From Pegea sp. RAD2-039 (Eukaryota; Chordata; Thaliacea; Salpida; Salpidae), in assembly GCA_034620365.1 (NCBI GenBank), contig JAQGEQ010000344.1:186001-250000 (forward strand): a DNA stretch of 64,000 nt, written 5' to 3'. Numbering within the stretch: the stretch's first letter is position 1; each line of letters begins with the position of its first letter. The position numbers were made by a program, and so were the translations under genes. The notes under the pieces were generated by a model. That model saw only the letters and a list, made by a program, of their open reading frames with translations, made no database searches and was not told the DNA's origin. Below, one piece after another: positions 31,242-64,000 of this stretch.

Positions 31242-33900
31242 TCATTTAGTTGCTAGATCGTCGTAGTTAGGAGGTGCTGTATCAGGAGAGTCTTCTAGAA
31301 GCGGAAGTGGTGAAGACTCGCTGTGGGAAGTTGAACATCCAGCAACTGATTGACTCCCTGCAACAACATCAGTTTACAGTTTGCTAGTTAACAAAATTAA
31401 TTTAAACTTCTACTACTTCTGCTAAAACCAAGTTTCAGAGTAAGCTTGTAAACTGATAACTGAAAATGCTCGGAAAGCTGTTTGCAGTTTTAAGCCCCTC
31501 CGCCATTTGCTAAAACCTCACTTAACCAGCTAGTTGACCCAAATTATGCGCATAGATCATATAAAACTGTTTCTGGCGTAATCTAAGATACCAGAATGTA
31601 TATAAACTGTTTGTACTAGATTATAGAAATATAAAAATCGCTTGGGCATGTTTACTACAAGCCCTGTTAGTATTTTTAACAATGTGGAACAGAAGTAGTT
31701 TCAAACCTTCAGAAAAGTTTCGATGACGTCGAGAGCTTGCTAGAGAAATTTCATCTTCCGTCACCAACATTATCTCACTGTGTTGAATTTTCTGTAAATT
31801 TAATTATTTCAATTTCCGCTAAGTGGCGCTATTTGATGAAATCTTACAATAGCGTCAGTATAATCTGTTTCATCTGAAGATACTTGAGCAGATGTTTCAA
31901 AGACCTCTGCTGGTAGAAGAGCTTCAAGTCTATTTAGTTCTGATACTCCTTCATTAAAAACTTCTTTCATATCCAAATATTCCTGAATCATCATTTTTAT
32001 CTACTGACCTCAATACATACCAACTCACCTGTCCAGCACTTTGTTGTAAAATGTCACCAATGACCGAAAATAGGGTCGAAAATGTGGGACGCTTCTCTGC
32101 ACTGTCTGCCCAACAACTTAGCATCATATTATATCTGAAATTTGAAGATTTCTTCGTTTAATGATTTCTTATTGGCAGTTCTTCAAGGTTTCAACGAGAA
32201 AGAGTTACAGAAGAAAAAGTGCAAAGATAGAGAGTCACAGTTGATTCTTCTTTGGAAGAATAAGTGAAAGACACATCCGGCCATATTGTAAGGAGAGTAT
32301 GATATAACATTCAACTTTTATCTTCTCTTTTTTAGATATTTTTGATATTTATCTTTCAGTTTCAACGAAACCAACAAGTTAGAAGAATGAAGTAATTTTT
32401 GATTCGAAACAATTTGGCGGAAAACTATTTTGGATTTCAACTCACATTTCTTCAGTTGAACATTCAGGCTTCGTCATTCGAGCTCCTCGTTTCAATCTGC
32501 TACAAAAATCATCATCCATTTTTACTCCTGGGTACGGGGTTTCCCCTAAAGAAAAAATCTCCCACAACAACACTCCAAACGACCAGCTACAACAAAAAGA
32601 AGTGTAAGTGACGTCATCAGCCACTTAATGACGTCATCAACTAACACATCGCTCTTTTGAGAGTAGACTCTGTCAAAAATCGATTCAGGTGACATCCACT
32701 TTAGCGGTAATCGCGCTTCGCCTCTCATGACGTAATCAGGATCATTATAGACGTCACGCGCCATACCGAAGTCGCAAATCTTGATCACGTGGTAATCAGC
32801 GAGCAAAACATTCCGCGCAGCTAAATCGCGATGAATGAACTGAAAAAAGAAGTGACGTCAGCATCCATGACGTCATCAAGTCCCGCGAACCTTTTTCGAG
32901 GCTAAATATTCCATTCCTCGGGATACTTGAAGACTGTAAGAGAGAAGATCAAGAAGAGAGATGATCTTCTTCTCATCGTCGTTGTCATCGATACTGTTGA
33001 TGACCGGTTAGTGACGTCATCAGTGGTGACGTCATCAACTACTTACAATGACACGCTGCTGCGTTTTTCGATCGATGTTTTAGATTCGCGGTCCTCTTTT
33101 CGAATTTCAACGAAACTGAATTGCTCTTTGCTGTCACGTGACCGCTTTTGTTCGAGTGCTTCGCGGTGATCTTCGATGTAATAGCGACGCATACGGCGCA
33201 GATAGTTGGAGAGGTTACCATAGCGACAGTACTCGACAATGATCATTAAAGGTCCTGAAGGATTTAGGATGAGAAATTGATGGAAGAACTTCATGTAACT
33301 GACCGTCTTTAGTGGTACAAGCTCCAAGTAGATTGACGATGTTGAGATGAGGTGTTAGGTGGATGAGGATGTTGAGTTCACTCATCAACGCGCTGTGTTC
33401 ATCAACACGCGATCCAACTACACAAAGATCAATAAAGTTTTAAATTGTTGAGACAATAAAAAAATCTCTCCGAAAAAAAACGACTTTTTTCAGACTGATT
33501 TATTTAACAGGAAACAATTAAGTTTCAAATTTTATTCAATTTTAATTTTCTTTGAAATTAAAGAGAAATTCTTCTTGAGATCACCTTTCAACATCTTCAC
33601 AGCAACTGTTCGACAAGAAATCTTCTTGTTTATATCAAATGCTGTCGCTTGAAGGACTTTCCCAAATGCTCCTCTTCCTAAGACCTTACCAAGTCGGAGT
33701 CTATCTCGAGGGAACTCCCATTTGTTTGTATCGTACGTGAAGTCGGATGACTCCGACAACGAAGACGGTTGTTGCTGCTGGTTACTTGTTTCTATGACAG
33801 GGGAACTTATTTCAGGTTGAATCACTGGCAGCAGATATTTCTTTTCCATTGCTAGTCGGCGAACAAGCTGGAAAAGAAGTTGAGCAGAAATTAATCTTTA

Positions 33901-33932
<32 letters not shown>

Positions 33933-36900
33933 GTTGAAACATCAAATTTATCTGCTGCTAACTATTTGCAACTTTTCTCGCTTACTTTTTTGACGCGCAG
34001 ACTTTTCAGCAAGTACAAGATAAAAGTTGTGGTGAGTACAACTAATATAAAAGAAATCGAAATGAAAAGAATTGTTTTGCTAATTCGGAATTGTTCTGTA
34101 CAAAGATACTTTCGATCAAGAAACAGTTCAACTCGATTCGAAGCAAGAATTACCTTCAACATGAATCACAAACGACCTGGTTTGTTGACTAAAGGAGTTT
34201 TGTGCGTGACAAATGTATTCCCCTGCATCTTCTTCAGCTATGACCTTGATCACTAGTGTGTCTGAGATGACTATTAATGAAGAAGTTGTTATTCTATCAG
34301 ACTTATTAAAGTATTTTCCATCAACTAGGGACTTACCTGAGATATTTCGTTTCTTGTTCGACCACGTGACTAGCGGTGTTGGGAAGCCAACTGCTTTACA
34401 ATGCAATACTGCCTTTTCACCTGATTTGAAATAAACTTGTTTTTTGTAGAAGTCAATAATCCTTGCAGTTCTTGGCTCTGAAAGTTGAACAAGTTTCAAC
34501 AGAGGAGAAATGTTTCAAAGAAGTCCTCACCTTGAACAAATATCTCCATACATCGGTTGAAAGATGCATAACCTGATTTGATTATCACCATATATAAAGT
34601 CGATGCTTTGATTTCATTCATATGCTTGCTGATTGAGATCGAATAATCATCAGAACCGAAACGTTTGCTTGTAACTTTAAAGATGTTTACTTCTTGCATT
34701 TTACTGTCTACTACAATCACAGTTGGTTTTGGATATGCAAATATATGGAAAGTGTGCGAGAAAGTAGAGTTGACAATCAAATGTCTTGTTAAACATTCAA
34801 CAGTTGGTTCAGTTGTTTGAATGTAATTCTTATCTGTTCGAAACAACAGATTTCAATTTCTTAGATGATATATTAGGTTGTGACTCACCTAAAACTTGTA
34901 ACTCTAATTCTGCAGTTTGATTTTTGAACGAGTTGTCAATGACACATCTATATATTCCAGAGTTTTCTTTGTTAGTATTTTCGATTTTAAAAGAAGCCCG
35001 ACACATTGCACGTTTTGAACTGGATGCTTTAACATCTGTCAAAGTCTAAAAGTTTTGTTGTTAACAAATCATTCACTTAATCCCTTCAAAACTTACTTTC
35101 ATTGCTTTTGATGAACTAGTGTTGAACCACGAAAACGAAATACTATATTTGCCAAGAATCTTTTTTGCTATTGTAAAGTTACACATCGCTTTCAAGGATC
35201 CACCTTCCTGAATTCTAACTATTGGTCTTTCACCACCAACTTTAATTAATTGACCATTTAATGAGCTATACACTTCCAAGTCACTTGTGTCTAAATCTCC
35301 AACTAGTAATAGAAAAAGTTTTTTGTTAAAATTCATTTAATTGGCATCACTATGCACCAAGTATTTTGACTTTAAACAACCTTTTACAAATTTCATCAAT
35401 ATTCTAGAAGCAAATGATTTATTTCTATTTGTTATTAGTTTAGTTGGTTAAGGATTTCTTATAAGGAACTAAATCGAGCTTTTCATGAAGTTGGATCTGA
35501 ACCAACTTTATTAGTTCAAAAGTTCACAAATTCTAGCTCTTAGATGCATAATGATGTTTATAAAATTTGTGTTTGCCTCACAAACATCTAAATATTGACA
35601 CATTTTCAAACTTTCACCTGGAATCAGATGAACAACAAATGTTCTTGTGGTAGTTATGTTTTTGTAAGAAGCTATACACTTCCAGACACCAGCATCTTTC
35701 AGTTCAGCTCCAGTTACAGTAAGACCTTCAGATGGGTCATAGGATATCTGAAAAAGTCAACTTTTGAAAATTTCTTAATATTAGTTGAAGTAAAAAGTCA
35801 GCTACATTGTTTGAAGCACTCTCAATCACCAAACAGAGGATTTAGAAAAGTGTTTTGAAATCTTACTCGTTCATCATAAAAGTTGTTGTAGTTGGAAGTG
35901 TAAGAAAATTGAGCTTTTTCATGAGTTTTTATACAAGGCAGTGTGAGGTCCCTACCTTCTTTCACCTTCACGCTAGATAACTTCGAATCACTATCAAGCA
36001 GCAAACTCTTACCATCTACAAAAAGTAAGATTATAAGGTCAGTGATGACGTCATACACACGAAAAAGCTTTTTCAGGTAGATAGTTATGTATTGGGTGGT
36101 TGGTGGCCAATAACTTTGGTTTCCCACGCTAAGACTTATCATACGATTGACAAGTAGTTAAGAGAAATAAATCTTTGCAGTTTACTTTTCATACAAACAA
36201 TTCTTTTGAACTATTTATAGCTCTATAGATGTCTAAGTACACGTTTTCGAGAGAGTTTTTGCACCTCAAAAACAGAGGATTTTCATGTGATTTACACTCA
36301 ATCAAGTTTAGTAAATATGTTTTTTTCAAATTATCAACTGATGCCAAGTTGTTTGTTTCGAGAAATTAAAAGAAAATTTATTGATTAATCTAACAATTTT
36401 GAAAAAGATGAAAAGTATATTTTAATATCAGATCAAAAAGATGTCTGTAGCAAACTCACCGTAAACGTAAACGTTGAAATATTTGAAAGTCACATATAGA
36501 GGATTATCGCGACTCACAAACAAGTTGGTCCTTTTACAACAATACAAGCCCGTCTCCTTCTGTCCCACATTATCTATTGTAAGCGTCGATATTTCATCAC
36601 CAGATTGTATATCGTAACTAGTAGTGATTGTAACGTTGCTATGGTTATTAGGAAACTTCCATGATATGTTTTCTTGGAATTCGAAGTCGCAGTTAATTTG
36701 AAGTCGATCACCAACTGCCAGTTGTTTGTTGTTATCAAGTTCTGAAGAGAAAATAGAAAATGATTTTTTGTCAGTTTTTCTTTTGCAACTTTGACAACTT
36801 TCTGACAAATCGTTTTTGAATTTTCTGTTTATATTTAAAATGATTTGTCATTCTCACAATAACTCACTTGATTCTAAAAGTTCAGCAATAAAACGTTTTT

Positions 36901-37211
36901 GGAAATTTACAAATTATTTGGACATTTATAACAGCTGTTAGCTGTTAGTAACAAAATTAATTTCAAAACTTTATAAACACATTTCTTATTATCGTTAAAA
37001 AATGTTCTTAACTTCTTTAAACCATTAATAAGCAGTTGGCAATTTTTAAGTTGACACAAAAAATTACTATTTATTAGAAATAAATTAAATTATTAAATTT
37101 AAAATAAATAAATTATTTATTAAATTACAAAATGTAAATACCTTCATAATCGTAGTAACCAAACACATCACTTGAAAAGCATAAAAATAGAAAATATATA
37201 ACAGATTTCAT
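31242..37211 (-). CDS. VEGFR: VEGFR-like receptor tyrosine kinase with five Ig-like domains (20 exons)
   Basis: Exons (minus): 37211-37142 (signal peptide), 36741-36460, 36015-35867, 35747-35618, 35302-35097, 35045-34889, 34833-34531, 34477-34337, 34270-34154, 34095-33986 (membrane span), 33867-33585, 33417-33304, 33254-33047, 32993-32891, 32839-32646, 32586-32446, 32134-32029, 32000-31848, 31791-31707, 31357-31242. Phases all agree; about 1055 aa. Five Ig-like regions, span near residues 523-548, then a split kinase: GRGAFG 619-624, VAVK Lys646, a charged kinase insert, HRDLAARN 794-801, DFG 814-816, [47 protein letters not shown] and [11 protein letters not shown] are closest to VEGFR among class III/V kinases. 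The kinase looks active. Vertebrate VEGFRs have seven Ig domains; five is the class III number. The tail ends in [10 protein letters not shown]. Ligand is unknown. Confidence 0.92.
33901..33930. repeat. (CAT)10 microsatellite
   Basis: Ten perfect CAT triplets in the VEGFR intron between the membrane-span exon and the juxtamembrane exon. Confidence 0.98.
34271..34336 (-). other. 66-nt intron in frame and without stops inside the last Ig domain
   Basis: The segment starts GTAAGT after CTCAG and ends TTAATAG on the minus strand, so both splice sites are good, but it is 66 nt long and open in frame. Spliced protein reads [13 protein letters not shown]; retained protein inserts 22 residues (starting [10 protein letters not shown]). 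Both keep the Ig cysteine and the DAGEYIC motif. Confidence 0.6.
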
Positions 37212-42099: not shown

Positions 42100-42119
42100 T
42101 CACACAAAAGATTTGAGGG

Positions 42120-42260
42120 CTGATCGGGTCCAGACCACTTGTATTTGTCCAGATACTGAGATAGTTCGAGCCCCAGTTATGTCAGCTGGCATTTTGAATA
42201 ATCTTGATATAAAATAAACCAATCTAATTACTCGAGAGGTGAGTTGACAGCAATGAGTTG
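42120..42260 (+). mobile_element. Possible tRNA-derived SINE fragment
   Basis: AGTTCGAGCCCCAG at about 42167-42180 matches the Pol III B-box consensus GWTCRANNC, within a GC-richer patch set in AT-rich DNA. The flanking bases do not pair as a tRNA T-arm and no clear A box is visible, so a decayed SINE or chance are both possible. Confidence 0.25.
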
Positions 42261-45639: not shown

Positions 45640-47101
45640 ACGACCATTTTTGTGATGCTAGTTTGATTATATAAAAGAACTTTTGAATCTGTTGATAAAA
45701 ATAATTTCTATTCTTCAATTTATTACTCAAATCTCTTGATTCCAACCAACTCAACCTCTAATAGTAGCTAGACGAAGGAATAAGTGACGAAACTAACCTT
45801 TAGTTGAGAAGTAGTAAGAGAAGTTCGATTTTTTATGATTTTAGTGAAGATAGAGCAAGTTGTGACACTGAAACTGAACATCAAACTTCAACAAAAACCT
45901 ACAAATCAAATTTGTTTAAATTCAAAACTGTTGTAAAAATGTTTCAATAAAATTTATTCGTGATAAAAAAGTTAATTCAGATTTGCCAGTTGCATATAAG
46001 TTTGAGTAAACGAAGATTAGAAGATGTACTTTTATCTAACAGCTGTAAAGGTCTTGAAAGATGAAGAAATATAAAAAGATAAATTAGAAAAATAGAAACT
46101 TTAATTCTAATTCTGTTAATTCGGTCAGCTTAAATTCTTTATACTACGATAAAGACAACGAAAATAAAAACTGTTTAGTTTAATTACGACTTTGATAGAG
46201 TTTTGATGACGTATGATAACGTGCTGCAGATGAAACTTCTCTAAATTGTTTTAATGAACAACTTTAGATGATCCCAGACCTTGGAGGTTAACTGTGCTAA
46301 AATGATCTTAAACTAAAAAGTCCTAAAGTGAATTGACCTGACAACAAATGTACTAAATGGTAAGTAATGTTGTTGGCTTTTTCTTTTATGTTAGACTAGA
46401 GACGAAATTCAAATGTTCTGTTGCATCTGAAAGACATCATTGTCGCTATTCACGTGGTTGAGAGTTTGAAATAGAGGTAATAGTAATCAAATATTGAAAA
46501 GTATCACAATTGAAGATCGGAGAGAATAAGTGTAGAGGTTTGAGTGAGACATGAAGGTGAAGCAACAACTGGATCTCCATAATTTCTAATATACCGTTTT
46601 CAGGTGAAGTAGGCCAAAAAAAATAAAGTCTTGGATCACAAAATTGTTGAGCGTTCAAGAACATCTTCAAAACTTAAATCAGCTGATCTCTCAAGACACC
46701 ACTTGATCCTAATACCCAGCTTCAACATGTAGACTTAAAATTATATTTGAAACAAATCTTTAAACAAGAATATCTTCATCAATTAGAGAACAGATTTACA
46801 GATGTTTCTGATTCTTCTTCAGATTGATCCAATTTCAATCTAAAAGTTGTTTCAAGTTGAAAAGATTTGTTGCAACTTTGTACCACTTCAACATGACACC
46901 AGTAAAAATTGTAAATGAATTAAATATAATCAATTGATCGAATTTTCTGAATTTTTTATTTAGTTGGAAATCCGAAGAAATATTTTTTTATTTGAAACAA
47001 GAAAAATGAAATTTCGATTTTTTCGAAAACTTTTTATTTTGAAATTATCAAAAAAATCTCAAATTGAAAAACAATTTGTTAAATTTGTGACGTCATCATC
47101 A
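45640..47101. other. Intergenic stretch with a LINE scrap
   Basis: Between the convergent MAP2K-like and TELO2 genes. It contains the LINE remnant at 46145-46310 and the TELO2 3' UTR at its right end; nothing else is recognised. Confidence 0.5.
46145..46310 (-). mobile_element. LINE remnant (copy D), strongly decayed
   Basis: The plus strand from TACGATAAAGACAACGAAAA to ATCCCAGACCTTGGAGGT parallels copy C (42667-42820) base by base with many changes, including the segment AACGTGCTGCAGATGAAACT against GCGTACTGCAGATAAAGACT. No readable frame remains. Confidence 0.65.
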
Positions 47102-50100
47102 TTACGTCATCGTCTTCATCTTCTGTTGCACTGAAGTCAGGGCGATAATCGCGCCTTCGACACATGTTGCGTCTTGATTCGCTTCAATGACGTCACAGAG
47201 CCATTGACGCGTTTCAAAGATGAGATTGAGAAGAAGAGGATCAGATGAAGCAAACGGAATCAGAATCGGAAGCAGAATTGAACAACTGAAAATTACTGAG
47301 CGACGCACGACGCGTTCACCATGACAACGCATCGATACGACGAAGCCAAGAGCATCTGAAGCCATTTTCGGTGCTTTCTGTAAAATAATGAAACTTCTTG
47401 AAAAATGTTCTTTTTTGGACTTTTTACAAACTTACCGGACAATTACTTGCCACGTCACATACTGACGTCATCGCAAAGATAAGTCGACAAAGAACAGAAG
47501 TATCAGTTTGCAGCAAATCAAGAGTTGGGATTTTACGATCAAAATATTGAATAAACGGATAGAAGAGAAACCCCGCGACGCTAACTAGTTGCGTAGCAAC
47601 CACATTTCGTGGTTCGCGTCGTCGTGATGTAAATCGACGAGTTTTCTTCTCAATTCGATCTTCAACAACCTTTTTCCATGGCAACGCATCATTTGTTGTT
47701 GATGACGTCACTTTCACTGCCTATAATAAACAACATAATGACGTCATCGTTAGTGACGTCACTCAATTACTTGACGTTTCGGAATTTGTCGAAAATGATT
47801 TGTTGTTATGACAACGACATCGAGAATCGTCAATCGCGTTTGAATCGCGTATTTTGAACTATAAAATTCATCAGCTAAAAACTGACCAATCTACAAGTAA
47901 AGATGAAATGACGTCATTATCGCCAGATGAAAGGTCAAAGTTGAAACCTGTTCAGGATCGGTGATCAGGATTTTCATCATCGCAGATTTTCGAAGTTCGT
48001 CAAAAAATTCCAAATCAAATTTGTTTTCAAGATTTAAAAGAAGATGACAAAGTTTCTGCGATACCTACGTCATAAACACGTCATCAACGACTACGTCATC
48101 AACAATACGTCATTAACAACTACGTCATAAACAATCACGTCATCAACGACAACGTCATCAACAATCACGTCATCAACAATCACGTCATCAACAACTACGT
48201 CATTAACGACTACGTCATCAACTAACTTCTTTCACTTCATGTTGACACTTTTCAATCAAGTTATTTAGTGACGTCATACAAATAGTAAATTTTTCTACAT
48301 CAATATCTTTGTGAGTAATTGCTTCTATGAAGTCATCAATATAAACTGGAATTTTATGCTGAAAATAGGAAATTAAAACAATTTAACTTCAACTGATTTA
48401 CACCAACTTTTGAAAATGGTTTTTCTTCTGGTATATAAAGTGGTTCGATATCGTCATCGCTATCTAAATCGCTGACGTCATCATTTTGTGAGCTAGCAAC
48501 TTTTATATGTTCTTTTAAGTCGTTCAAATTATGATTAGTTGAATAAACTAGTTGATCAGATACAACTTGATTTGTAGCTTCAACTGTAAATGCTGCAATC
48601 GATTTTCTGCAAAAAGTTGCAACTTATTAGCGGCATTTGATAGCAGCATTCGATTGCAGCATTTGAAACTTACCGGAAGCGAGCTTCTTCTCGATTAATC
48701 AAATCTTCTCTTCCAGCTTTCAGCACTTCTTTTTCGACCAAATTTGTTAACTTTTTGATCACTTTATTGTTACTATCATACTCGAACCGAAGCCTAGAAC
48801 AAATGACGTCATCAACGCCCTTGATGAGTAACACGTGAACAAATTACTTCGAAGTAACTTGTAACAAGTCAGTGACGTATTCGGCCGTTACCATGGCAAT
48901 TGAACGAATATCTTGATCGGGTGAATCGAGATGCTCTTTCATTCCTTTCATCAACATTTCCATTAAACCTGTGACGTCACGAATGATGTCATCATAATGA
49001 AGTCATCAACAACTTTAAAAACTTACAACTCCTATATTCGTCAGTGACGTCATCATGACGTATGAATCGCGCACAACAGATGACGGCAGCGGTGACGTAA
49101 TGATGTTGTTCAAAAGGCGATCGCGACATAAAAGCTTCTAGACACCAAATTTCCAACGATTTCCTCAGCAACTACATCATCGACAAATTAGTGACGTCAT
49201 CAAGAAATTAGTGACGTCATCGACAAATTAGTGACGTCATCGACAAACTAGTGACGTCATTACAAACCTGAATGAGCAGTTTTGGGTAGATTGAACTGAT
49301 GTAGTAGAAAATGTTTAGAATAATTTGAAAATCATCAAAATATTTGCTAAATAGAAGTCGTGACGTCATCAGTTCTTCGACTTTTCGATTTTTGACAATT
49401 AAATCATCAAATAAATAAACTAAAACATCTGGTCTGAAATTGATTGGTTTTTATTTGTTAGATTTTCATCAAAATCTTTCAACTCACTCAATTGTGGCTC
49501 GTAATATGCAAATGAGAATTCCTTCGATACCAACTGTGACGTCACTTAACAACCGACGAATGAGGGACAGAAAATTAGGCTTTAAAATATTCGAGTTGAA
49601 ATAAGGAATTAAAATATCAAAAATAATGTCATTTTTGCCCAAATTTGAACTCTGGCCCAAAACATTTGATAAAAACGCCAAATTAGAAGGTTGTTGACAA
49701 TTAGTGGTCACGTGATCGAGGCATGACGTCATTTGAAACGCGAGAAGTCGATAATATTGGACGTGATGACAAACATGTGATCTATTTGCAAACAATTTAA
49801 TGACGTCACATGTTACTAAGAAGGATGATGACGTCACCTGTTCACTGGTGGAAGAAAGCGCGATATGACATCAGGAAGCGAAAGAAGCGATCTGATGAGA
49901 TTGTTTTGTAAGATTGGATTTCGATTTCTGTGAATCTCCGCCAAAAATAAATTCTTTAAAAAGTTGTTCTTTAAAAGCTCTTGAAGCAGAAAAAGTACCA
50001 ACTCATGAGTCTCAGTTCTGCAAAATGACGTCATCACTAGGTGAAAATGACGTCATCACCAGGTGAAAATGACGTCATCAACTAACCTGTTTGATTTGAT

Positions 50101-50421
50101 GATTGAAATGAAAGTATTGAAAGAAATTGAAGGATGTATTTGTTGTAGAAGTTGAAATGATAGATTTGATGAATATTTACATTTCAACCACAAAATTGGA
50201 GAATTTTTGAGAATTTGTTGAAAAATTTTCATTATTTTTCTTTGAGTTTGTTCCGAAATTGAATTTTTCATCTTCTGAAATAAAAATCAATAAAATTTGA
50301 AGAAAAAAATTAGGAATTAATCAACCTCAATAAAGAGAAGAAGACATTCACTACATTTGCTAGATTCAAAATCATTTTCTTCTAAAATTTTTATCCATTC
50401 ATTTATTTCATTTTCATTCAT
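47102..50421 (-). CDS. TELO2: TELO2 (TTT complex, PIKK maturation), 14 exons, complete
   Basis: HEAT-repeat scaffold of the Tel2-Tti1-Tti2 complex, which with R2TP/HSP90 stabilises mTOR, ATM, ATR and related kinases. Exons (minus): 50421-50326, 50274-50087, 50017-49838, 49781-49488, 49433-49268, 49171-49027, 48968-48848, 48793-48674, 48606-48408, 48358-48227, 48064-47948, 47890-47771, 47720-47436, 47377-47102; predicted 812 aa against 837 in human. The best matches are WKKVVEDRIEKKTRRF, QLVSVAGFLFYPFIQYFDR, TLDLLQTD and the C-terminal ETRQWLCDVIEAN. The acidic SDLDSDDD at residues 482-489 corresponds to the CK2-phosphorylated site that recruits PIH1D1. TGACGTCA motifs fill its introns and enter exons (for example MTSCLDHV, SDVTVG). 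Exons 1-5 are more divergent than the C-terminal half. Confidence 0.93.
48065..48226. repeat. 15-bp minisatellite of ACGTCATCAACAATC in a TELO2 intron
   Basis: About 11 imperfect copies of ACGTCATCAACAATC (variants ACGTCATAAAC, ACGTCATTAAC). Each carries the half-palindrome ACGTCA of the TGACGTCA motif. It fills the whole intron between exons 48358-48227 and 48064-47948. Confidence 0.92.
49185..49260. repeat. 20-bp tandem repeat around TGACGTCAT in a TELO2 intron
   Basis: Four copies of AAATTAGTGACGTCATCGAC in the intron between the exons 49433-49268 and 49171-49027, each with a complete TGACGTCA. Confidence 0.92.
50022..50083. repeat. 22-bp tandem repeat around TGACGTCATCA in a TELO2 intron
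   Basis: Three copies of AAAATGACGTCATCACTAGG-like sequence between exons 50274-50087 and 50017-49838; only the last few bases differ. Confidence 0.9.
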
Positions 50422-52349
50422 TTCTAATTATTTGTTTAAAAAAATAAATTTCCTGAATTTAAAAATCAAATAATTTTCTTACATGGAAAATTTTACAGAA
50501 ATTTTAGGAAATTTTTATAAAATATCAAAAAATATATAATATAATTTTTATTATTTAATAGAAAAACCAAAAAGATACAAAAATAATTAAATAAATAGTT
50601 ATACAAATATTGAAAAATAAAAAAGTTATTAATAACTTCAAAATTAAGTGATAAACTTAAAAAATATTAACTAAAAAATTTGTAGAAATGTAATTAACTA
50701 AACAACAACTTTTTCTAGTTTAAATTTTTAATAATAATTTTAATAATTTAAATACAATTTTTAAAAAAATTCTTTTTTAAGTATCAAATTAATTATAAGA
50801 AAATTAATTGATAAGAAGCACAAAATAAAACTGTTTCTATTTATATTACATAAAACTAAAAATTTATACAAAGATAAGTTCCTGAAAAAGTCTATTATAT
50901 AATACTTTTTGAAAAATTCAATCACTTTAAATAATTTAAAATTCTAACAGCTCAATAATAGAGAGAAAATAAATTTTTAACAAAATTTTATTTAAATGAA
51001 CATCAGCTTATTTCTATTTAAAAAAGGGGAAAACCCACAGTGAAAAAATTGGAATTCTTTTTTGTTGCTTCGTCTGCTTAACATTTTCTCTAACGTCTAT
51101 TTTACCTATTTTGAAACCTCGAAGTACTGCCAATAATATAAATTATTTAAAAAAGAAGAAAAAGCTTAAAGATCTGATAGAAACTATAAGCAAAGTTTAA
51201 TGAATTTCAATCACACTGTGATATTAGATTGGTGTTAGTGCAGCTATTTTCAACAAAATTATTAGACTAAGAAGATATTCTTTTCAACTGTAAATGTTAA
51301 ACACTAATGTAATCAAAATGACGGAAGAATACTTTACTATTTTAAATGTCGAACATATCACAAGCAGTATATTTTAAAAGCTTACAATTTATTCATGAAG
51401 TTAAAATTCAAACTAAACATAAAAATAAATAAATTGATAATTAAACAAGTTTAATAGATACACACAATTTAAGGTAGAATAATAAGTGAAGTCTATTTAG
51501 TTTAAAAATATAGTTTGAAAAATATAGCATCAAAACGGTATGAAACTCTGCAGTTATGAATTTATTATTGAGGCAGTTATGAATAATTATAGAGTAGATA
51601 CTATCTACACTAACATATGTGTGAAAGGCTTGAAGTTTCATCATTAATTTTCATCAGCTGTTTAAATATCAAGAATAAAATATTAAAAGTTGAAATTATT
51701 CTTGTTTGAAAGCAACACAACAATGTTTTTTCAATTTCAAAACGTTTTTAGATTTGCTATTTATTTGATAAACATTTACAGTTTAAGTAAAAATAGAAAT
51801 TAAATAAAACTTAATAAGATTTTATTCAAACACATTTATTCTAATTAGCTTTCATTTCAAATCGATTTTTTTTTTAACTTTTTAACTTGTTAAATTCGAC
51901 TAAGCTAAAAAACGATTAAAAGTTATAAAAATAATCTTTCTTAAATTTATTTGAAAGTAAGCAAATAAATATAATTTTGAGTATTTTATTTTTAATTCAA
52001 TTTTAAATATTAAACATTAACTAACTAATAATAATAGATTTTAAAATCTTTATAATCAACAACCAAAAAAAAGTTTATTATTTTGAAAACTTTATTTGTA
52101 AAAAGACAGAAAAGTCGTTCGGAATTACGTTTGTTAAAAAAATATTTTCATCTTACAAATTGTTAAAAATTCCTAGATATCTTTTTACTTCTGTTGCAAT
52201 GTTGAAACGTAAATTTAGAATTTAAACGTCACATCTAATTTTGTCAGTAATTATTTCTTTAACTTTTTCTTCACTTTTTTTCTTGTTTAAATTTGTATCA
52301 CTTTTACATTTATAAGACTGAATCAAGTTAATGATTTGATAAATATCTG
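50422..52349. other. Divergent intergenic region between TELO2 and the myotubularin gene
   Basis: 1.9 kb of very AT-rich DNA that must contain the promoters of both genes. No coding block is recognised; the minus frame at 51644-51441 has no support. Note that TGACGTCA is absent here although it is dense in both flanking genes. Confidence 0.5.
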
Positions 52350-55300
52350 ATGGAGCATATCAAAACACCAAAGGTAAGAATTCTCTCATAAATTTTATTT
52401 CTAAAACTTTTATTTGTTATTTTTATATTTAATTTCAACTTTTATGAATAATTTTGTTTTTTAAATTTTTGTTTATATTTTTTCTTTCTAATCTGTTTTC
52501 TTCTGTTTACATTAAAAAGTTGAAAATTTAATGATTAAAAAGTTGAAATATTTTTGAGTAATTAATAACTTGAATTCAACTTAATTCTTGTCAAGAAAAC
52601 TTATAGATAGATTTTATTAATTTGATTATTTAACTAATTAGAATGATTATTTTATGATTTTTTAGTTATAAAACTATTTGGAATAATTTTATAAATAATT
52701 TTTTTGCTTCACTTTTACAAATATTTCAAATAATTAATTTTTTATCATTAGAAAGTTTTGCAAAAAAAGATCTAATAATAAATTGTTGAAAGATTGTAAA
52801 TATTTCTAAATATAATAATATATATAATATTTTAAAGACTATTTTTTTAATGATTTAAACAGCTCAAAAAAATATGAAAATATAATTAACAATTATATAA
52901 ATTTTGTTGATAAAAAAGTAACTTGAAAATAAGTCATAAAAATATAATTTTTTTGTAAATTATATAAATTTTATCAATAAATTATTTTATTAAAAGACAA
53001 ATCTTGTAATTAGTGAAATTAAAGATGAAATTGTCAAACTTTCAATTCTAATTTTAATATTTTGTCACTTCTACATCCTGAACCTATAAAAGTTCCGATC
53101 GAAAATAGAACTTTTATTGATTTCAAATATAATTCAGGTTGAAAATGTCCGCCTCATTGAAAATCATTCTCGAAACAGTGACGTAGGCACGCTCTACCTC
53201 ACCGCGACTCATCTCATCTTTGTTGATTCCAAAAGAAGTAAGGAGAAATGGATTGTTCATTCTCACATTCAGCAAGTTGAAAAACTAAATTTGGTCCAAA
53301 GCGGATCTCCTCTTCGCATCAGGTTCGTTCCGCTTCACTGATTTCACTAACATTTCGTTCCGCTTCACTGATTCCACTTTTCAACAGATGCAAGAACTTT
53401 CAAGTCCTGAATTTTATCATCGCGCAAGAACGCGACTGTCACGATCTTCATTTATCACTTTGCAAGTTATCGCGACCAAGTCAGTGTTAATGACGTCATC
53501 ACCTTGTGGTAATTAACATGTTGTCATGACAGCAAGTTTAAGGGAGTTGTACGCTTTCACATATGTACCACGTGACCAGCAATTACTGACCAATCATGAG
53601 GTAGGTTGGGACATGTATCAGCTGACCAAAGACTTTATGCAAATGGGACTTCCCACTCTTCACTGGAAAATTTCACGAATCAATAACGAATTTGGTTTGT
53701 ATGACGTCATCATCGCTATTCACTGACGTCATCACTTGCTGCAGAAGTATGCAAGACGTATCCACCAATAATTTGTGTTCCTTCCATGGCAACTGCAGCT
53801 TTACTTCTGGGAAGTGCTGACTTCCGGTCCAAACATCGACTTCCGGTGCTTTCATATCGTCATAGCAACGGGGCGGCTGTTGTTAGGTGCGCGCAGCCGA
53901 TGTCAGGTTTCAATTCACGATCAATTGAAGATGAAGCTTATGTGGATTTGATTCGGAGATCGAAACCGCGTCCAAATGACTTCATGTATATCGTCGATAC
54001 GCGTCCTATGGTTAGTGACGTCATCACTGTATCTGTCATGTGGTTAGTGACGTCATCAATTGGCAGATTAACGCGATGGCGAATCGCGCTCAGGGCAAAG
54101 GTTATGAGAATACAGATTTCTATGAAAATATCAAATTTCATTTCTTGGGTATCGACAACATTCATGTGATGCGCGCAAGCCTTCATAAAATGCTCGATGG
54201 TAAGGCGTCGATGACGTCATCATCGCTACACTGACGTCATTGTTTGTAGCTTGTTGTGACGTGGAATCAAATGGAAATTGGCTAGATGCGTTGATAAGTA
54301 GTGGTTGGCAACGTCACGTGCACAGTGTCTTACAAGTGTCACGCTTCATTGCACATGTGAGTTTGTGACGTCATATGATTAGTTGTGATCGATGTAATGA
54401 CGTCACAGGCGGTTGGGATCGAAGGTCGAAGCGTTTTGGTGCATTGTAGTGACGGATGGGATAGAACAGCTCAAGTGTGCTCTCTAGCGGCGATTATGTT
54501 GGAATCGCGTTATCGAACCATCGATGGATTATTCGCGTTGATTCAACGTGAATGGTTGGATCTTGGACATAAATTTTCTGATCGCTGTGGACATCTAGAT
54601 CGCGATTCACGCGAAGTATCGCCGATTTTCACGCAATTTATCGACGCGGTGTGGCAATTACTTCGATTAAAACCAACAAGTTTTCAATTTAATGAGAAGT
54701 TGTTGATGGAACTTCATGATCATGTCTATTCTTGTCAATTTGGTACATTCCTTTGTAACTCAGCTCGTGAAAGAATCGATGAAAAGTAAGTCGGGTGATG
54801 ACGTCATCAGTTACTAATCGAATGACGTCATCAGTTTAAATACGAGTACTTACTCGTTGTGGGCATATATGACTGAGAAGATACCAATGTTTACTAATCC
54901 ATTTTTTTCAATCGAATCTTCAAAAGATCAACTTCTTCTTCCACCAACTCAACCTCATTTCGTCAAATTCTGGCTTGCAATGTATAGCAGGTTGGTTTGT
55001 GACGTCATCGAGTTGTATGTGTGACGTCATCGAGCGTGATGTATAGATACAGTTTGGGATTACAACCTCGTGAAAATCTTGAAAATGCCATGATAAAATT
55101 AAATGAACATGCTGTCAAGTTAGAAGCTGAAAAAACTTCTTTGAGAAAAGCAAAAAGTTTAATTCGTTCTGCTTTTGGTCTTATTAAAAGAAGATCTGAC
55201 CAAAATATTACTACAGGTTTGTTGTTATATTGTTGTGTGTTGTTGTTATTATTGTTTGTTGCTTTAGTTGTTGTTTGTTGCAATATTGTTGTTGTTATGA

Positions 55301-55678
55301 TTGTTGTTTGTTGCTATATTGTTGTTATTGTTGTTTGTAGTTGTTATTGTTGCTTTAGTTGTTGTTATTGTTTGTTGTTATGGTTACTTGTTGCTTCAAA
55401 AAAGTTCTTATGCTTAAGGGTCAACTTTATGTGGAGCGCTTACTTCGGTTAATCAAACTATCCTTAATAATAATGACGTCACAATAACTAATCACGTTAT
55501 CGATGAAGAATGTTCTACGTCATCAATTACTACGCGCGATGCTTGTGTGATGTATAAACGAGCAAGTGATGACGTCGATGATACGTCATCAATCTCGACA
55601 AGTCATGACGTAACTAGTGAAAAAATCAGTCCATCACTGACTGATTTGAAACTGACGTCATCAGATGAAGTAGCATAG
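52350..55678 (+). CDS. MTMR6/7/8: Myotubularin-related phosphatase, MTMR6/7/8 group (11 exons, complete)
   Basis: Phosphoinositide 3-phosphatase acting on PI3P and PI(3,5)P2 at endosomal membranes. Exons: 52350-52373, 53138-53322, 53388-53479, 53533-53694, 53745-54010, 54067-54199, 54250-54356, 54409-54785, 54835-54990, 55047-55216, 55419-55678; predicted 643 aa (human MTMR6 621). Starts [12 protein letters not shown] like MTMR6, then a PH-GRAM region ([14 protein letters not shown]), [49 protein letters not shown], and the active-site loop HCSDGWDRT with Cys336 and Arg342, so it should be active. FSDRCGHLD and EVSPIFTQF follow, then KFWLAMYSR and a coiled-coil-like segment. The Ser/Thr/Asp-rich C terminus (TSS, SDDVDD) is partly made from TGACGTCA-type repeats. 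At 54808-54834 two CATCAG acceptors compete; phase selects the second. The last exon is less certain. Confidence 0.94.
55217..55390. repeat. Imperfect (TTG)n-rich tract in the last MTMR intron
   Basis: GTTGTTGTTATTGTTTGTTG-type low-complexity sequence filling most of intron 55217-55418. It remains open in one frame, which is not considered coding. Confidence 0.85.
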
Positions 55679-55881
55679 CGTTCGTATGACGTCATCAGCA
55701 AATCTTCCATCAGTTGTTGAAATTAGAAATTTTTAGTTGAAATGTAATTGTTGATGACGTCATCGTCGATGTTAGCGCGCTTTAGATCTAGAATCCTCTT
55801 CCACTTTTTTGATCTTTCTCTTCTCTTTAGTGATCCTCTATCTTCGCAATCAACTTTTTTGATGTCATCTTTTTTCAGTGC

Positions 55882-55887
55882 AATAAA
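55882..55887 (+). promoter_or_regulatory. poly(A) signal AATAAA of the myotubularin gene
   Basis: AATAAA 204 bp after the stop at 55678, facing the minus-strand signal of PRUNE 20 bp away. Confidence 0.65.
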
Positions 55888-55907
55888 AATTGTAAAAACT
55901 TCAATCT

Positions 55908-55913
55908 TTTATT
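55908..55913 (-). promoter_or_regulatory. poly(A) signal AATAAA of PRUNE
   Basis: Minus-strand AATAAA 31 bp past the PRUNE stop. Together with 55882-55887 it makes a second tail-to-tail gene pair with overlapping 3' ends in this window. Confidence 0.65.
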
Positions 55914-55943
55914 TTCACGCGATTCAACGAAGCAGTGACGTCA

Positions 55944-58900
55944 TTAAGTGACGCGTAAGTGAGTGATGACGTCAACAACTGCAGGAAGAAGTTGCTTTCT
56001 TGTTGCTTGAACGAAACTCATCCTAAAATATTTACATTTGATCATTACTCGCTTTTATGACGTCATCAACTGACCTCAGAAGACGAAAGTGCAACTGATG
56101 AGGAAGCGAGGAAGATTTGAGGATCAGATGACTTTTTTGTGAGCAGATAGCGTCTGAAAACTAAAATTATATTAGTAACCATAACAACCAATCAGTAGCT
56201 ATAGAAACCAACCAGTAACCATAACAACCAATCAGTAGCTATAGAAACCAACCAGTAATTATATCAACCAATCAGTAGCTATAGCAACCAACCAGTAGCT
56301 ATAGAAGCCAACCAGTAGCTATAGAAACCAACCAGTAATTATATCAACCAATCAATAGCTATAGCAACCAACCAGTAGCTATAGAAACCAATCAGTAGCT
56401 ATAGAAACCAATCAGTAGCTATAGAAGCCAACCAGTAGCTATAGAAACCAATCAATAGCTATAGAAGCCAACCAGTAGCTATAGAAACCAATCAGTAGCT
56501 ATAGAAACAAACCAGTAGCTATAAAAACCAACCAGTAGCTATAGAAACCAATCAGTAGTTATAGAAACCAACCAGTAGCTATAGAAACTAACCAGTAGCT
56601 ATAGAAACCAATCAGTAGCTATAGAAGCCAACCAGTAGCTATAGAAACCAATCAGTAGCTATAGAAGCCAACCAGTAGCTATAGAAGCCAACCAGTAGCT
56701 ATAGAAACCAATCAGTAGCTATAGAAACAATCAGTAGCCAGTAGCTATAGTAGCTATAGAAGCCAACCAACCAGTAGTTATAGAAACCAACCAGTAGCTA
56801 TAGAAGCCAACCAGTAGCTATAGAAACCAATCAGTAGCTATAGAAACCAACCAGTAGCTATAGAAACCAACCAGTAGCTATAGAAGCCAACCAGTAGCTA
56901 TAGAAACCAATCAGCAGCTATAGAAACCAACCAGTAGCTATAGAAGCCAACCAGTAGCTATAGAAACCAATCAGTAGCCAACCAGTAGCTATAGAAACCA
57001 ATCAGTAGCTATAGAAACCAATCAGTAGCTATAGAAACCAACAGTAGCTATAGAAACCAACCAGTAGCTATAGAAACCAATCAGTAGCTATAGAAACCAA
57101 TCAGTAGCTATAGAAACCAATCAGTAGCTATAGAAGTAGCTATAGAAACCAATCAGTAGCTATAGAAACCAATCAGTAGCTATAGAAACCAACCAGTAGC
57201 TATAGAAACCAATCAGTAGCTATAGAAACCAACCAGTAGCTATAGAAACCAATATAGCTCAATCAGTAGCTATAGAAACCAATCAGTAGCTATAGCCAAC
57301 AGTAGCTATAGAAACCAATCAGTAGCTATAGAAACCAATCAGTAGCTATAGAAACCAACCAGTAGCTATAGAAGCCAACCAGTAGCTATAGAAGCCAACC
57401 AGTAGCTATAGAAACCAACCAGTAGCTATAGAAACCAATCAGTAGCTATAGAAGCCAACCAGTAGCTATAGAAACCAATCAGTAGCTATAGAAGCCAACC
57501 AGTAGCTATAGAAACCAATCAGTAGCTATAGAAACAAACCAGTAGCTATAGAAACCAACCAGTAGCTATAGAAACCAACCAGTAGCTATAGAAACCAATC
57601 AGTAGCTATAGAAACCAATCAGTAGCTATAGAAACCAATCAGTAGCTATAGAAGCCAACCAGTAGCTATATAAACCTACCAGTAGCTATAGAAGCCAATC
57701 AGTAGCTATAGAAACCAACCAGTAATTATATCAACCAACCAGTAGCTATAGAAACCAATCAGTAGCTATAGAAACCAATCAGTAGCTATAGAAGCCAACC
57801 AGTAGCTATAGAAACCAACCAGTAGCTATAGAAACCAACCAGTAGCTATAGAAACCAATCAGTAGCTATAGAAACCAATCAGTAGCTATAGAAACCAATC
57901 AGTAGCTATAGAAACCAAACAGTAGCAAAGATAAACCTTTTGAAGTAACTCTTCATCTTCTGAAAAGACGAGAATCGGTTTAAAATCTTGATCTTGTAAA
58001 AAGAGTCCAATCCACATCTTTACATCACTTTGTGACGTCATTCGTCGAATCGATTTGCTCCAATCCAATTTTTGAAACTTCTCTAAGCTCAGATGCATCG
58101 AGCTGATGATGACGTCATCAGTTGCAAGCTTCGCATCCTGTTTGCATCAATTAAAGCAGACGACACGGATGATGACGTCATCACCTTGCGAAGTAAATCA
58201 AAAGCTGAAAGTTGTGTGACGTCATATTTAGCTTCCATCAATTGATGACGTAATTGATTGTGATCGAAATCTTGCGCTAAATCGTTGATAGCTGATTGGT
58301 CGTCAGGCCAACTGCGTCCTCCACTTGTATCCACCACAATCGCTCCTACAAGTCTTGACGTCATCATATGATGTAGTAAATGACGTCACTTACCGACGAG
58401 AAGTTGACGTAAATCGCTAGGCAGCTGATTAGTATCGAAGTGATGACGTAATTGACGCCAGACTAATGTAGAACAAGATCCAATTGTTTCGTTGCAAATT
58501 GAAACTCCAACCGGAAGTTGTGTGACGTCAGTGGGTGGATGATGATCAATGACGTCAGTAACGCGCGTCTGAAGCGCTTTCAATTGACTTGTGAAGAGTT
58601 AGAACAAAACATGATTTGGTCAGGGGAATTACCTGATGATGACGTGGTGGTCTACAAGTGTGACTGATAAATTGAAGTCGTGGACCAGTTGATCAAGACC
58701 ACTGTCCACAAACAACATGGAATCGTGGACACATGGCAACGCAAGTTTGGTTGCTAGGTAAGTGATTTCAGTGCGCAGTTTCAAATCATCTTTCACGATA
58801 CTCATCACTGGTACACATAAGGCGTCCTGTATGACGTCACTGCTTAAATGATGACGTCACTACTTGAATGATGACGTCGCTACTCAAATGATGACGTCAT

Positions 58901-59084
58901 CTCTCACCGTCAAATGACTCTTCATCCATGACACAGCTAGAGCAGAAGCAAATGAATCAAGATCACAAGAACAATTTCCAACCACTAGATGGAGCTTTTG
59001 TCGAGTTGGAAGTTGAGATGATGTCATCAGATTTTGCAAATGAGGTGCAAGATCAGTAAGAAAGTCTTTGAGAGATCTTAACAT
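55944..59084 (-). CDS. PRUNE1: PRUNE exopolyphosphatase, DHH family (7 exons, complete)
   Basis: DHH-superfamily phosphoesterase; vertebrate PRUNE1 hydrolyses short-chain polyphosphate and cyclic nucleotides. Exons (minus): 59084-58908, 58826-58633, 58587-58394, 58345-58185, 58137-57937, 56160-56075, 56022-55944; predicted 363 aa, shorter than human PRUNE1 (453) because the disordered tail is missing. Metal-site motifs are present: VVGNCSCDLDS, LVDHHVI (the DHH signature), IDHHPP, ETIGSCSTLVW, and IVVDTSGG where the fourth Asp is expected; so probably active. DHHA2 region: LMEAKYDVTQLSAFDLLRK, later SFVQATRKQLLPA. The intron between exons 5 and 6 (56161-57936) is a minisatellite. The exon-6 acceptor ATAATTTTAG is chosen by phase over TTTTCAG seven bases on. 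It starts 109 bp after the stop of the CUSTOS-like gene on the same strand. Confidence 0.92.
56166..57930. repeat. 20-bp minisatellite, about 85-88 units, filling a PRUNE intron
   Basis: Unit AGTAGCTATAGAAACCAATC with alternatives CCAACC, GAAGCC and others. Most spacings are 20 bp, with several local breaks (near 56735, 56980, 57130, 57255, 57290). The left edge (56170-56240) shows a different-looking 40-bp dimer, AGTAACCATAACAACCAATC followed by the standard unit, repeated twice, which may preserve the founder form. Many units contain AACCAATCAG, which matches the CCAAT-box consensus. Confidence 0.96.
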
Positions 59085-59107
59085 GATAAATTAACAATTT
59101 ACAAAAA

Positions 59108-59110
59108 CTG
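59108..59110 (-). promoter_or_regulatory. Candidate trans-splice (or 5'-UTR) acceptor between CUSTOS-like gene and PRUNE
   Basis: On the minus strand a tract TTTCAAATTTTTTTTTCAG ends here, 23 bases before the PRUNE ATG and within the 109-bp gap after the upstream gene's stop. No AATAAA is present in the gap. This is the arrangement seen in operons resolved by spliced-leader trans-splicing, but a 5'-UTR cis intron with a donor inside the upstream gene is an alternative. Confidence 0.45.
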
Positions 59111-59193
59111 AAAAAAAAATTTGAAATTGAAAAAAAACCTAATCGGTAGCCTAGTACCGGTTGTCATGGCAATTAGTAATTGTCAACAAGCTT

Positions 59194-59622
59194 TCACTTC
59201 TTGCTTTCAGCAATGACGTCATCAGCGTCAATGACGACACCCGATAAATCGTCATCAGACGAATCGTTTGTAGCAAAAATCTTTCTTCGCTTCAATCGCG
59301 GCTTCTTCTGCTTATTTTCCACTTTCTTGATGACGTCATCATTTACAAACGCTTGAGAATCTTTCAACAACTTCACTCCACCACTAGAGGGCAACCGCGC
59401 GCGTTTTCGAGTGATGACGTCAACGTAATCGATGCAAGTGTCGTAATAGTTGGTTAATTTATCAGAAATAAACTTTTGTTGAGATTTTGAGATCTTGATC
59501 TCCATTCCACCGCCTACACTCTTCATCTGATCTTCTTCTTCTTTCTTCATCTTTTTAACTTCTTTCCGTTCGAAATCTTCACAAACAGCAGCAGATAACT
59601 GATCTTCATCAGAAGATGACAT
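59194..59622 (-). CDS. Small acidic/basic nuclear-type protein, CUSTOS (C12orf43)-like candidate
   Basis: Single-exon 142-aa frame ending 109 bp upstream of PRUNE on the same strand. Starts MSSSDEDQLSAAVCEDFERK; then a Lys/Glu-rich segment, a helix ISKSQQKFISDKLTNYYDTC, a basic stretch RLKRRKIF near residue 115 that could be a nuclear localisation signal, and an Asp/Ser-rich end. The order Ser-rich acidic start, a conserved central helix, then a basic segment resembles CUSTOS, a small nuclear protein linked to Wnt signalling in vertebrates; the similarity is weak, so this is a hypothesis. The peptides VDVI, NDDVI and ADDVI are each encoded by a GACGTCAT motif. Its compact frame and position make it likely to be a real gene. 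Confidence 0.65.
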   Translation of the reverse strand: MSSSDEDQLSAAVCEDFERKEVKKMKKEEEDQMKSVGGGMEIKISKSQQKFISDKLTNYYDTCIDYVDVITRKRARLPSSGGVKLLKDSQAFVNDDVIKKVENKQKKPRLKRRKIFATNDSSDDDLSGVVIDADDVIAESKK

Positions 59623-59634
59623 TTCAAACTTTGA

Positions 59635-62570: not shown

Positions 62571-62585
62571 CGTTGACCTCCTTGT

Positions 62586-62722
62586 CACTGTCCCAGGTCA
62601 CTGTCCCAGGTCACTGTCTTAGGTCACTGTCCTAGGTCACTGTCTTAGGTCAGTGTTCAAGGTCACTGTCCCAGGTCACTGTTCCAGGTCACTGTCTCAG
62701 GTCACTGTCCTAGGTCACTGGA
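62586..62722. repeat. 13-bp minisatellite with ten AGGTCA motifs
   Basis: Unit CACTGTCCCAGGT. AGGTCA starts at 62595, 62608, 62621, 62634, 62647, 62660, 62673, 62686, 62699 and 62712, i.e. ten perfect copies at exactly 13-bp steps; the seven bases between vary (CTGTCCC, CTGTCTT, CTGTCCT, GTGTTCA and others). An imperfect unit precedes and one follows. Confidence 0.97.
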
Positions 62723-62745
62723 CTGCGTCACCGAACAGCAAATCT

Positions 62746-63553
62746 AGAAAATGGAGATAGTTTCTTAGTTATTAACAAAACCAAAGATGAGATGGGAAAA
62801 GAGGAATCATGAGACATCATCATCTCTATCTACTTTCACCAACCAGCAAGTTGAATGAAACAAAATAAATTCTCACTTTGCTTGCTAAGAAATTCGAAGT
62901 TACGTTTCTTAACAATTTAAAAATTTAAAAAGATTTGCTTATTTGTTGAAGATCAAATTGATAAGTTGTTTGTCTGCAAACCTACAAATATCAAGTTCTA
63001 TTTGATTAATCGAAGATTAAGCTCTCTAAAAACTTTCTTTTTATTAAATCTAAAAACATTTTAAAAATTTATGTATTAAATCTAAAAACATTTTTAAAAC
63101 TTCAAATAAGACAAGTAGAAAGGAATTCAAGCTGCTTATTGGTTGTTTAAGTCTTGTAAATGACCTAAAGTAACCTTTCTGGGTTACTAGCCTGTTGATG
63201 ACGTCATCATGACATGCAAGATGTGCCTCGTGATTGAACAAGCTATCAACAATCTTCATCTTTGAATATTAGAGAAGCAATTACAAACTTTTTCTTCAAT
63301 TATTTTCTAATTTCGTTTTTATCTTCTAAACTTGTCGAATTCTCATCAAATTTCCTGAATCTTGAAAAAGAAGAATCAGTTGCTGCAAATTTGCTGCAAG
63401 CTCTGCATTCATCGACATGTTCTGTTTATTTATCTTTTATTTTTTGTTTACTTTCGCATTGTAATTCATCAAAATATCAATAAATAAATTAAGAACAAAA
63501 AAAGCTTCATTAAATCTTCCTCTACGTCGCGCTTCAAGTGTGACGTCATCAAC
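62746..63553. other. Stretch between the 13-bp repeat and the ShKT gene
   Basis: Short frames exist on both strands (minus 63259-63050, plus 63262-63483), one with a TGACGTCATCA motif typical of genic DNA here, but neither translation is recognisable or has a clear splice structure. The ShKT gene's 3' UTR should run into it (a minus-strand AATAAA lies near 63426). Confidence 0.4.
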
Positions 63554-64000
63554 TCAACAAAGTCCGCAACTTTTTTGACATTTTATTTTCATAAATTCAG
63601 GATACGATCCATAACAATAACCAGAAGTTGCAAACATCGAACAGCTTGTCACGTGATCGAGACATTCTGCAAACAACTTGATGACGTCATCATCTTTACT
63701 AGCATCATTATACCTTTAGATTGGCAAGTCGAACAACAATTCTTTTTCATCCAAATTGGGGCACTTTCACAGGCCCCAATCCCTTTCCAGTAACTACAAT
63801 CGCTTCTGACGTCATCACATCGCGACTTAGTGACGCGATTCAACCGACAACTAACGCAGCAAAGCGATTGAATCGACTTCGACCAACAGCGTCCATTAAT
63901 CGCGTACATGAAGCAGAAGCTATGACGGTCCAAACAAACAGTTGCCCCTGGCGACCACGGACCAGTCTGGTAACCAGTTGTGACCACTGGGTAAGCAGAA
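63554..64000 (-). CDS. ShKT-domain protein, partial (5' end outside window)
   Basis: Two exons seen on the minus strand: from the window edge to 63714, and 63666-63554 (stop TGA). The protein carries three cysteine-rich modules in a row. The first runs CLDRHSFCF to CCVSC; the second CDDVRSDCSYWKGIGAC to CCSTC; the third CLDHVTSCSM to CQKSCGLC, ending two residues before nothing but the stop. Spacing (six Cys, GxC in the middle, CxxC at the end) fits the ShKT fold, and the last two fit best. Such domains occur in secreted proteins, often beside metalloprotease or peroxidase domains; what precedes them here is unknown. A TGACGTCATCA motif lies in the intron and another in the exon. The frame is open to the window edge, but an acceptor-like TTACCCAG near 63993-63986 could mark an exon start. 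Confidence 0.8.

Follow-up and report, generated by a model that had tools for sequence, protein, structure and literature searches.

Sites of the CRE/ATF/FOS-JUN bZIP class form known clusters in promoters and enhancers. Short DNA words are also found enriched inside active genes, as are the MSL recognition elements of Drosophila X chromosomes. The word studied here, TGACGTCA, shares with the bZIP sites the 8-bp core and the palindromic consensus of 12–13 bp; however, its copies lie predominantly inside predicted genes without a 5' bias and not in the promoter or enhancer position of the described sites. With MSL recognition elements it has in common that a short word lies inside genes, whereas here the word is palindromic and of bZIP type, with no known link to a sex chromosome or to dosage. 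The PATCs of C. elegans are likewise a pervasive non-coding DNA signal of introns, and PATC-rich introns lower the germline silencing of transgenes (PMC7725773). PATCs are AT periodicities, whereas the present signal is one exact palindrome that contains a CpG and occurs in exons as well. None of the titles and opening lines of abstracts listed for the motif, its extended form, tunicates, short introns, thaliacean genomes or PATCs, mainly from openly accessible papers, describes a distribution of this kind, and the string ACGTCA was absent from the available part of a paper on tunicate splicing (PMC13326754).

The window (the whole 64-kb stretch analyzed, C132:186001-250000) contained exactly 70 copies of TGACGTCA, the number that the original prediction had estimated by eye against a chance level of about one; in 100 dinucleotide-preserving shuffles, the mean was 0.63 and the maximum was 4. 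The runner-up palindromic 8-mer, AAATATTT, had 33 copies, and other palindromes with four G/C had at most 4 copies each. A single copy lay at 13294 and the other 69 within 32609-63807, in agreement with the statement that all but one (placed near 13296) lie at 32 kb or beyond. The exception claimed for the VEGFR ectodomain was likewise recovered, 36046 being the only copy in that half of the gene, and the intergenic sequence between TELO2 and MTMR, said to be empty, held zero copies within 50078-53490. In the TELO2 and MTMR regions there was one copy per ~125–135 bp. That most copies extend to TGACGTCATCA held in part: on the + strand TCA followed the core in 34 of 70 copies, which is short of a majority, whereas TCA after the core or TGA before it was present in 42 of 70.

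Genes were delineated with a home-made Viterbi predictor run without RNA support, and all exon and intron figures below rest on these predicted models. The motif was left unmasked when the later models were scored, so that some introns carrying it may be called exons. The TELO2 model is incomplete, and a + strand model at 30.5–34.4 kb, which overlaps VEGFR in antisense, was excluded from the intron counts. Matches to Pfam or PDB backed a TNPO3/IPO13-like gene, an MFS transporter, VEGFR (best PDB matches: entries named VEGFR1 and VEGFR2), TELO2, MTMR6-9, a PRUNE-like DHH protein and an ShK gene. The names given beforehand were thus recovered for MFSD12 (as an MFS transporter), VEGFR, TELO2, MTMR, PRUNE (as DHH) and ShK, but the CUSTOS-like assignment had no Pfam match, and the TNPO3/IPO13-like gene, which hosts the copy at 13294 in a predicted 49-nt intron, had not been named. 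The word counts are firm, while the intron and exon figures depend on predicted models and the function is one that we infer. The motif sites are as follows.

13294..13301, unstranded: single TGACGTCA in the predicted 49-nt intron of the TNPO3/IPO13-like gene (gene model and Pfam/PDB)
32587..32645, - strand: VEGFR kinase intron of 59 nt, two copies (gene model)
32840..32890, - strand: VEGFR kinase intron of 51 nt, two copies (gene model)
32994..33046, - strand: VEGFR kinase intron of 53 nt, two copies (gene model)
36046..36053, unstranded: sole copy in the ectodomain half of VEGFR (later model: 444-nt intron; earlier model: coding)
47088..50086, - strand: TELO2 region, 24 intronic and exonic copies (models and word positions)
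49177-49260, - strand: TELO2 region, four-copy 20-bp array (tandem-repeat listing)
49782-49837, - strand: TELO2 region, two copies (earlier model only)
50018-50086, - strand: TELO2 region, 69-nt intron identified by eye and absent from every model, three copies
53480..53542, + strand: MTMR intron of 63 nt, one copy (gene model)
53695..53744, + strand: MTMR intron of 50 nt, two copies (gene model)
54011..54066, + strand: MTMR intron of 56 nt, two copies, with flanks suggesting local duplication (gene model and flank comparison)
54200..54249, + strand: MTMR intron of 50 nt, two copies (gene model)
54357..54408, + strand: MTMR intron of 52 nt, two copies (gene model)
54786..54834, + strand: MTMR intron of 49 nt, two copies, the second reaching into the 3' splice site (TGACGTCATCAG) (gene model)
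54991..55034, + strand: MTMR intron modeled at 44 nt, its 3' end further on by eye, two copies (gene model and eye)
55474..55694, + strand: MTMR C-terminal exon copies at 55474 and 55653 (read NNDVT and LTSSDE) and one just past the stop (55687) (gene model)
58033..59076, - strand: PRUNE-like gene, exonic copies and introns 58346-58393 (two copies) and 58827-58907 (three copies), the copy at 58033 lying beyond the model end (gene model and Pfam/PDB)
59198..59622, - strand: CUSTOS-like exon, three copies read DVIT, DDVI and DDVI (fused by the predictor with PRUNE-like exons, split by eye)
63199..63814, unstranded: ShK-domain gene and its surroundings, four copies (Pfam/PDB and word positions)

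The assembly comprises 105.7 Mb in 387 contigs. When the MTMR DNA was compared with its own genome, the matches listed gave no second allele or paralogue, only the locus itself and matches to its TTG-repeat intron. No COX1 (PF00115) was detected in the assembly. GH6, a tunicate hallmark, appeared as one exon in the genome at 27.5 bits against a family cut-off of 27; this exon and the VEGFR with its PDB matches suggest that the genome is probably that of a tunicate.

Genome-wide, TGACGTCA occurred 27,792 times, whereas the control palindromes of equal base composition and with the same central CpG occurred 694 (AGTCGACT) and 4,614 (TCACGTGA) times, and the CpG-free backward-read words 969 (ACTGCAGT), 237 (AGTGCACT) and 2,917 (TCAGCTGA) times. 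That is, TGACGTCA was 40 times as frequent as a palindrome matched in composition and CpG, and its genome-wide count did not follow the expectation from composition. The word was distributed in patches: the first 100 matches listed extended to 1.56 Mb of contig C1, or ~64 per Mb compared with a genome mean of 263, and among the pairs of copies listed, those at C1:2.01-2.22 Mb were dense. As a separate observation, TCACGTGA is a USF-type E-box; it forms a weaker second word that looks more evenly spread among the C1 matches listed.

We then considered 15 round-coordinate stretches, which were picked after the first TGACGTCA listing had been seen (one of them, L011, falls in the region that this listing covers). 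In first-pass models, predicted exons and introns held 28 of the 34 copies yet spanned 51 of the 150 kb, and the 99 kb outside predicted genes held 6; the density outside was ~1/9 of that inside, and equal intergenic density was thus not observed in the sampled stretches. The first fifth of predicted genes held 13 of 102 copies, showing no 5' concentration. The suggestion of a genome-wide intronic signal was largely supported: the signal is mainly intragenic, occurs in exons as well as short introns, and is confined to some of the genes. Its dissimilarity to promoter elements was also supported, as the 5' part of genes had fewer copies in the predicted models and most copies were intragenic in the sample.

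Within genes, the copies were concentrated in the shortest introns. The commonest intron class was 45–59 nt (118 of 214 introns). Across the 17 genes that carry the motif, 39 copies fell within the 5.65 kb of introns of <=70 nt (6.9 per kb) and 42 within 32.9 kb of exons (1.3 per kb); in longer introns of motif genes the density was 2.1 per kb at 71–130 nt, 1.9 per kb at 131–400 nt and 0.5 per kb at 401–3000 nt. Among 128 introns of <=70 nt from 30 genes, 102 had zero copies, 13 had one and 13 had exactly two; these counts, from the 17 motif genes and 128 short introns, describe an enriched set, since two loci (L035 and L036) had been chosen for motif richness. Redistribution of the copies among the short introns of each gene gave 5.2 introns with exactly two, and the observed 13 were reached in 0 of 5000 simulations. 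Pairing accounted for 26 of the 39 short-intron copies but only 4 of the 42 exonic copies, the remaining 38 being single. In MTMR, six introns of 44–56 nt had two copies each, as did three of 51–59 nt in the VEGFR kinase half. Exonic copies were translated as DV or TS (e.g., DDVI and MTSS), and the frame that creates a stop was used by 0 of 42, which the predictor itself enforces. Pairs with starts 11–44 bp apart numbered 5,954 genome-wide, a mean of 175 per spacing over 34 spacings; the four spacings counted singly gave 199 (15 bp), 366 (19 bp), 466 (20 bp, the commonest of the four) and 251 (25 bp). We make no claim of helical phasing, as the mode near 20 bp is broad and is inflated by arrays of 20 and 25 bp. 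The flank identity of near pairs was somewhat above that of far pairs, and pairing could partly stem from duplication; at 100–4000 bp apart flank identity was hardly raised.

The sequence surrounding the core followed a preference, pooled over both sides, for T or C at +1, C at +2 and A at +3, in the same order in exons and introns but weaker in exons. These flanks prolong the palindrome to GATGACGTCATC(A), a site of FOS/JUN/ATF type with R...Y flanks; in the available part of one source, GATGACGTCATCA is tabulated as the JASPAR FOS consensus (PMC9164029). Relative to gene sense, TC on the right and GA on the left were found 27 and 25 times in introns and 12 and 16 times in exons; this near symmetry is as expected of a double-stranded DNA site. 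An RNA signal read by orientation on the sense strand was rejected, since there was no clear sense bias in introns or exons. An order-2 Markov model, fitted to motif-rich sequence after masking of the motif, predicted for that sequence 0.59 copies of the exact word against 113 observed (~190-fold), whereas single-mismatch words reached just 1–12 times their expectation, indicating that the exact word is what accumulates.

The pairing in short introns could have a structural cause: two UGACGUCA in one ~50-nt intron could pair as an 8-bp stem, which would shorten the distance between splice sites or mark the intron for splicing. Such a stem would account for the near restriction of pairing to short introns, and the predicted minimum-energy fold paired both copies in 12 of 13 two-copy introns. 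Stems of at least 6 bp were present in a 0.46 fraction of the 13 single-copy introns compared with 0.25 of shuffles, a mild excess, and inner flank positions 5 and 6 were complementary in 0.56 and 0.62 of near pairs versus 0.42 and 0.38 of far pairs, although the pairs are few. However, the adjoining flanks did not lengthen the helix beyond chance: the outer ones were complementary at 0.69/0.31/0.41 compared with 0.66/0.42/0.41 in far pairs, and the inner ones at 0.67/0.26/0.42 compared with 0.65/0.36/0.46. The 102 zero-copy short introns had no stem excess (0.294 versus 0.300 shuffled), a fixed sequence is unnecessary for a stem, and the word also occurs singly in exons with similar flanks. 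A one-mismatch partner accompanied the intact copy in 3 of 13 single-copy introns, among them TGACGTTA, which still permits a G-U pair. An RNA stem is not the simplest reading, and we judge it unlikely. The two inverted-repeat-capable copies per short intron might alternatively be the terminal repeats of an introner-like or MITE insertion, but the sequence between and around the copies looked unrelated by eye across the 13 two-copy introns, and neither there nor in the flank comparison was homology beyond the motif found across copies. Single exonic copies would not fit such an element, and two VEGFR kinase introns lie at positions that we take to be shared with vertebrate KIT (one before ARLPVKWM); those introns would thus predate the motif. 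We regard an origin by insertion as hardly credible. A word with no function for the host, multiplying through local duplication or some unknown drive, would explain the clear tandem copies at 49192-49252, 50026-50070 and 58832-58892, the larger 20- and 25-bp arrays elsewhere in the genome and the co-orientation of the asymmetric flank. The latter ran along the window (22 clusters versus 5, with 19 undecided, p 0.0015) independently of gene direction, and pairs on C1 were co-oriented in runs (20 of 29 neighbors concordant, p 0.025); local copying and a replication-strand effect are candidates for its cause. On the other hand, copies 100–4000 bp apart had no clear flank homology past the +/-3 consensus, sequence outside predicted genes was motif-poor (99 of the 150 kb, with 6 of the 34 copies), and the motif was not the building unit of the window's largest minisatellites and appeared in only 4 of the window's 30 TRF rows. 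To our knowledge, no mechanism copies a word of 8–12 bp without its flanks. The idea of a self-spreading motif in the original prediction was thus not supported, although the co-oriented flanks leave some room for local copying, and we regard spread free of host function as rather unlikely.

The motif was also associated with CpG content, and the word might be a passive by-product, CpG words simply surviving in unmethylated, CpG-rich genes. The observed/expected CpG ratio (O/E) was 0.99 in 38 1-kb windows with copies nearby compared with 0.56 in 162 motif-free windows. Motif density correlated with the CpG O/E of the motif-masked CDS (rho 0.65, p 0.0007) in 23 predicted genes from outside the window, as passive survival would have it; L035 and L036 are among these genes, as are two models that overlie retrotransposon-like sequence. 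Exon CpG O/E was 0.90 in motif genes versus 0.53 in motif-free genes, and short-intron CpG O/E was 0.59 versus 0.36; at merely 0.59, an unmethylated state of the short introns of motif genes is not implied. DNMT-family genes are present in the genome, and a methylation link of the motif genes is therefore possible. Nevertheless, survival as the sole cause is refuted by the Markov expectation (0.59 against 113) and by AGTCGACT, which has the same composition and CpG but a genome-wide count of only 694; the low excess of the one-mismatch words also argues against it, leaving passive survival highly improbable.

We tentatively favor, at somewhat less than an even chance and on sequence evidence, intragenic arrays of bZIP-type DNA sites that would be retained by selection and act on the chromatin of gene bodies, some of the copies having arisen by local duplication. 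In this reading TGACGTCA, with its extension to GATGACGTCATC(A), would be the double-stranded recognition site of a dimeric bZIP factor of the ATF/CREB/FOS-JUN class, and the animal would have accumulated this word within the bodies of some of its genes. bZIP proteins may occupy these sites in germ-line cells or in the early embryo, and this occupancy might keep the gene body accessible and its CpGs unmethylated, or guard it against silencing, by analogy with the PATC-rich introns of C. elegans. Selection would then retain the copies gene by gene, and local tandem duplication may add some of those in introns, where changes in length would be tolerated. Several observations count against this favored account: the lower density in longer introns is not predicted by a general gene-body role in chromatin; the motif genes, named by eye, have no obvious common function, some apparent housekeeping genes being without the motif; the account does not explain the regional strand bias of the flank; and the pairing would equally suit an RNA stem or, in part, duplication. 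A more specific form, which we consider doubtful, is a genome-wide code within genes, in which paired bZIP palindromes in ~50-nt introns, with single exonic copies (DV/TS dipeptides) as backup, would mark a gene class for a chromatin or germline-licensing state; chordates would then have an equivalent of PATCs based on a transcription-factor word in place of AT periodicity.

The tens of thousands of copies, by sample mostly inside genes and often two per very short intron, suggest an unrecognized gene-body signal. Its imprint on intron sequence, and even on protein sequence, is visible. If the sites are bound, a classic signaling-responsive word would be placed in transcribed gene bodies on a scale unlike that of a promoter element, and the animal would offer a system in which to test how an intragenic DNA signal may separate gene classes and how transcription-factor sites may accumulate by the tens of thousands.

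The asymmetric TC 3' of the TGACGTCA core was co-oriented by chromosome strand across window positions 32609-63814, whichever way the genes run. The USF/MITF-type E-box TCACGTGA was also over-represented, with 4,614 copies genome-wide versus 694 of the control palindrome AGTCGACT; at times it overlaps TGACGTCA (e.g., C1:23084-23096). The following arrays were found in the window:

7685-8179, minisatellite, 19-bp unit
10703-12914, minisatellite, 16-bp unit
19115-23086, minisatellite, 29-bp unit
48078-48227, 15-bp array (ACGTCATCAACAACT) built from half-motif units, inside a predicted TELO2 intron
56186-57926, minisatellite, 20-bp unit

TGACGTCA was the repeat unit in none of the four large window minisatellites (16, 29, 20 and 19 bp). 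Some of these lie in predicted introns, of the TNPO3-like gene and, by eye, perhaps of PRUNE.

DNA_methylase (PF00145) matched 11 times in the genome, and seven of these matches fell within open frames of 832-873 aa. Open frames with these matches and a GH6 exon were located as follows:

C57, C249, C32 and C52 (loci L025-L030), open frames with PF00145 matches
C14:74494-74718 (locus L037), GH6 exon

By eye, the six inspected of the seven frames look like intronless DNMT1-type retrocopies; the PCQ catalytic motif was retained in three and lost in the other three, whose reading frame nonetheless remained open. On C49, PF00145 matches in split pieces suggest a gene with introns. Sequence judged by eye to be membrane-spanning lies upstream of the GH6 exon, which points to tunicates.
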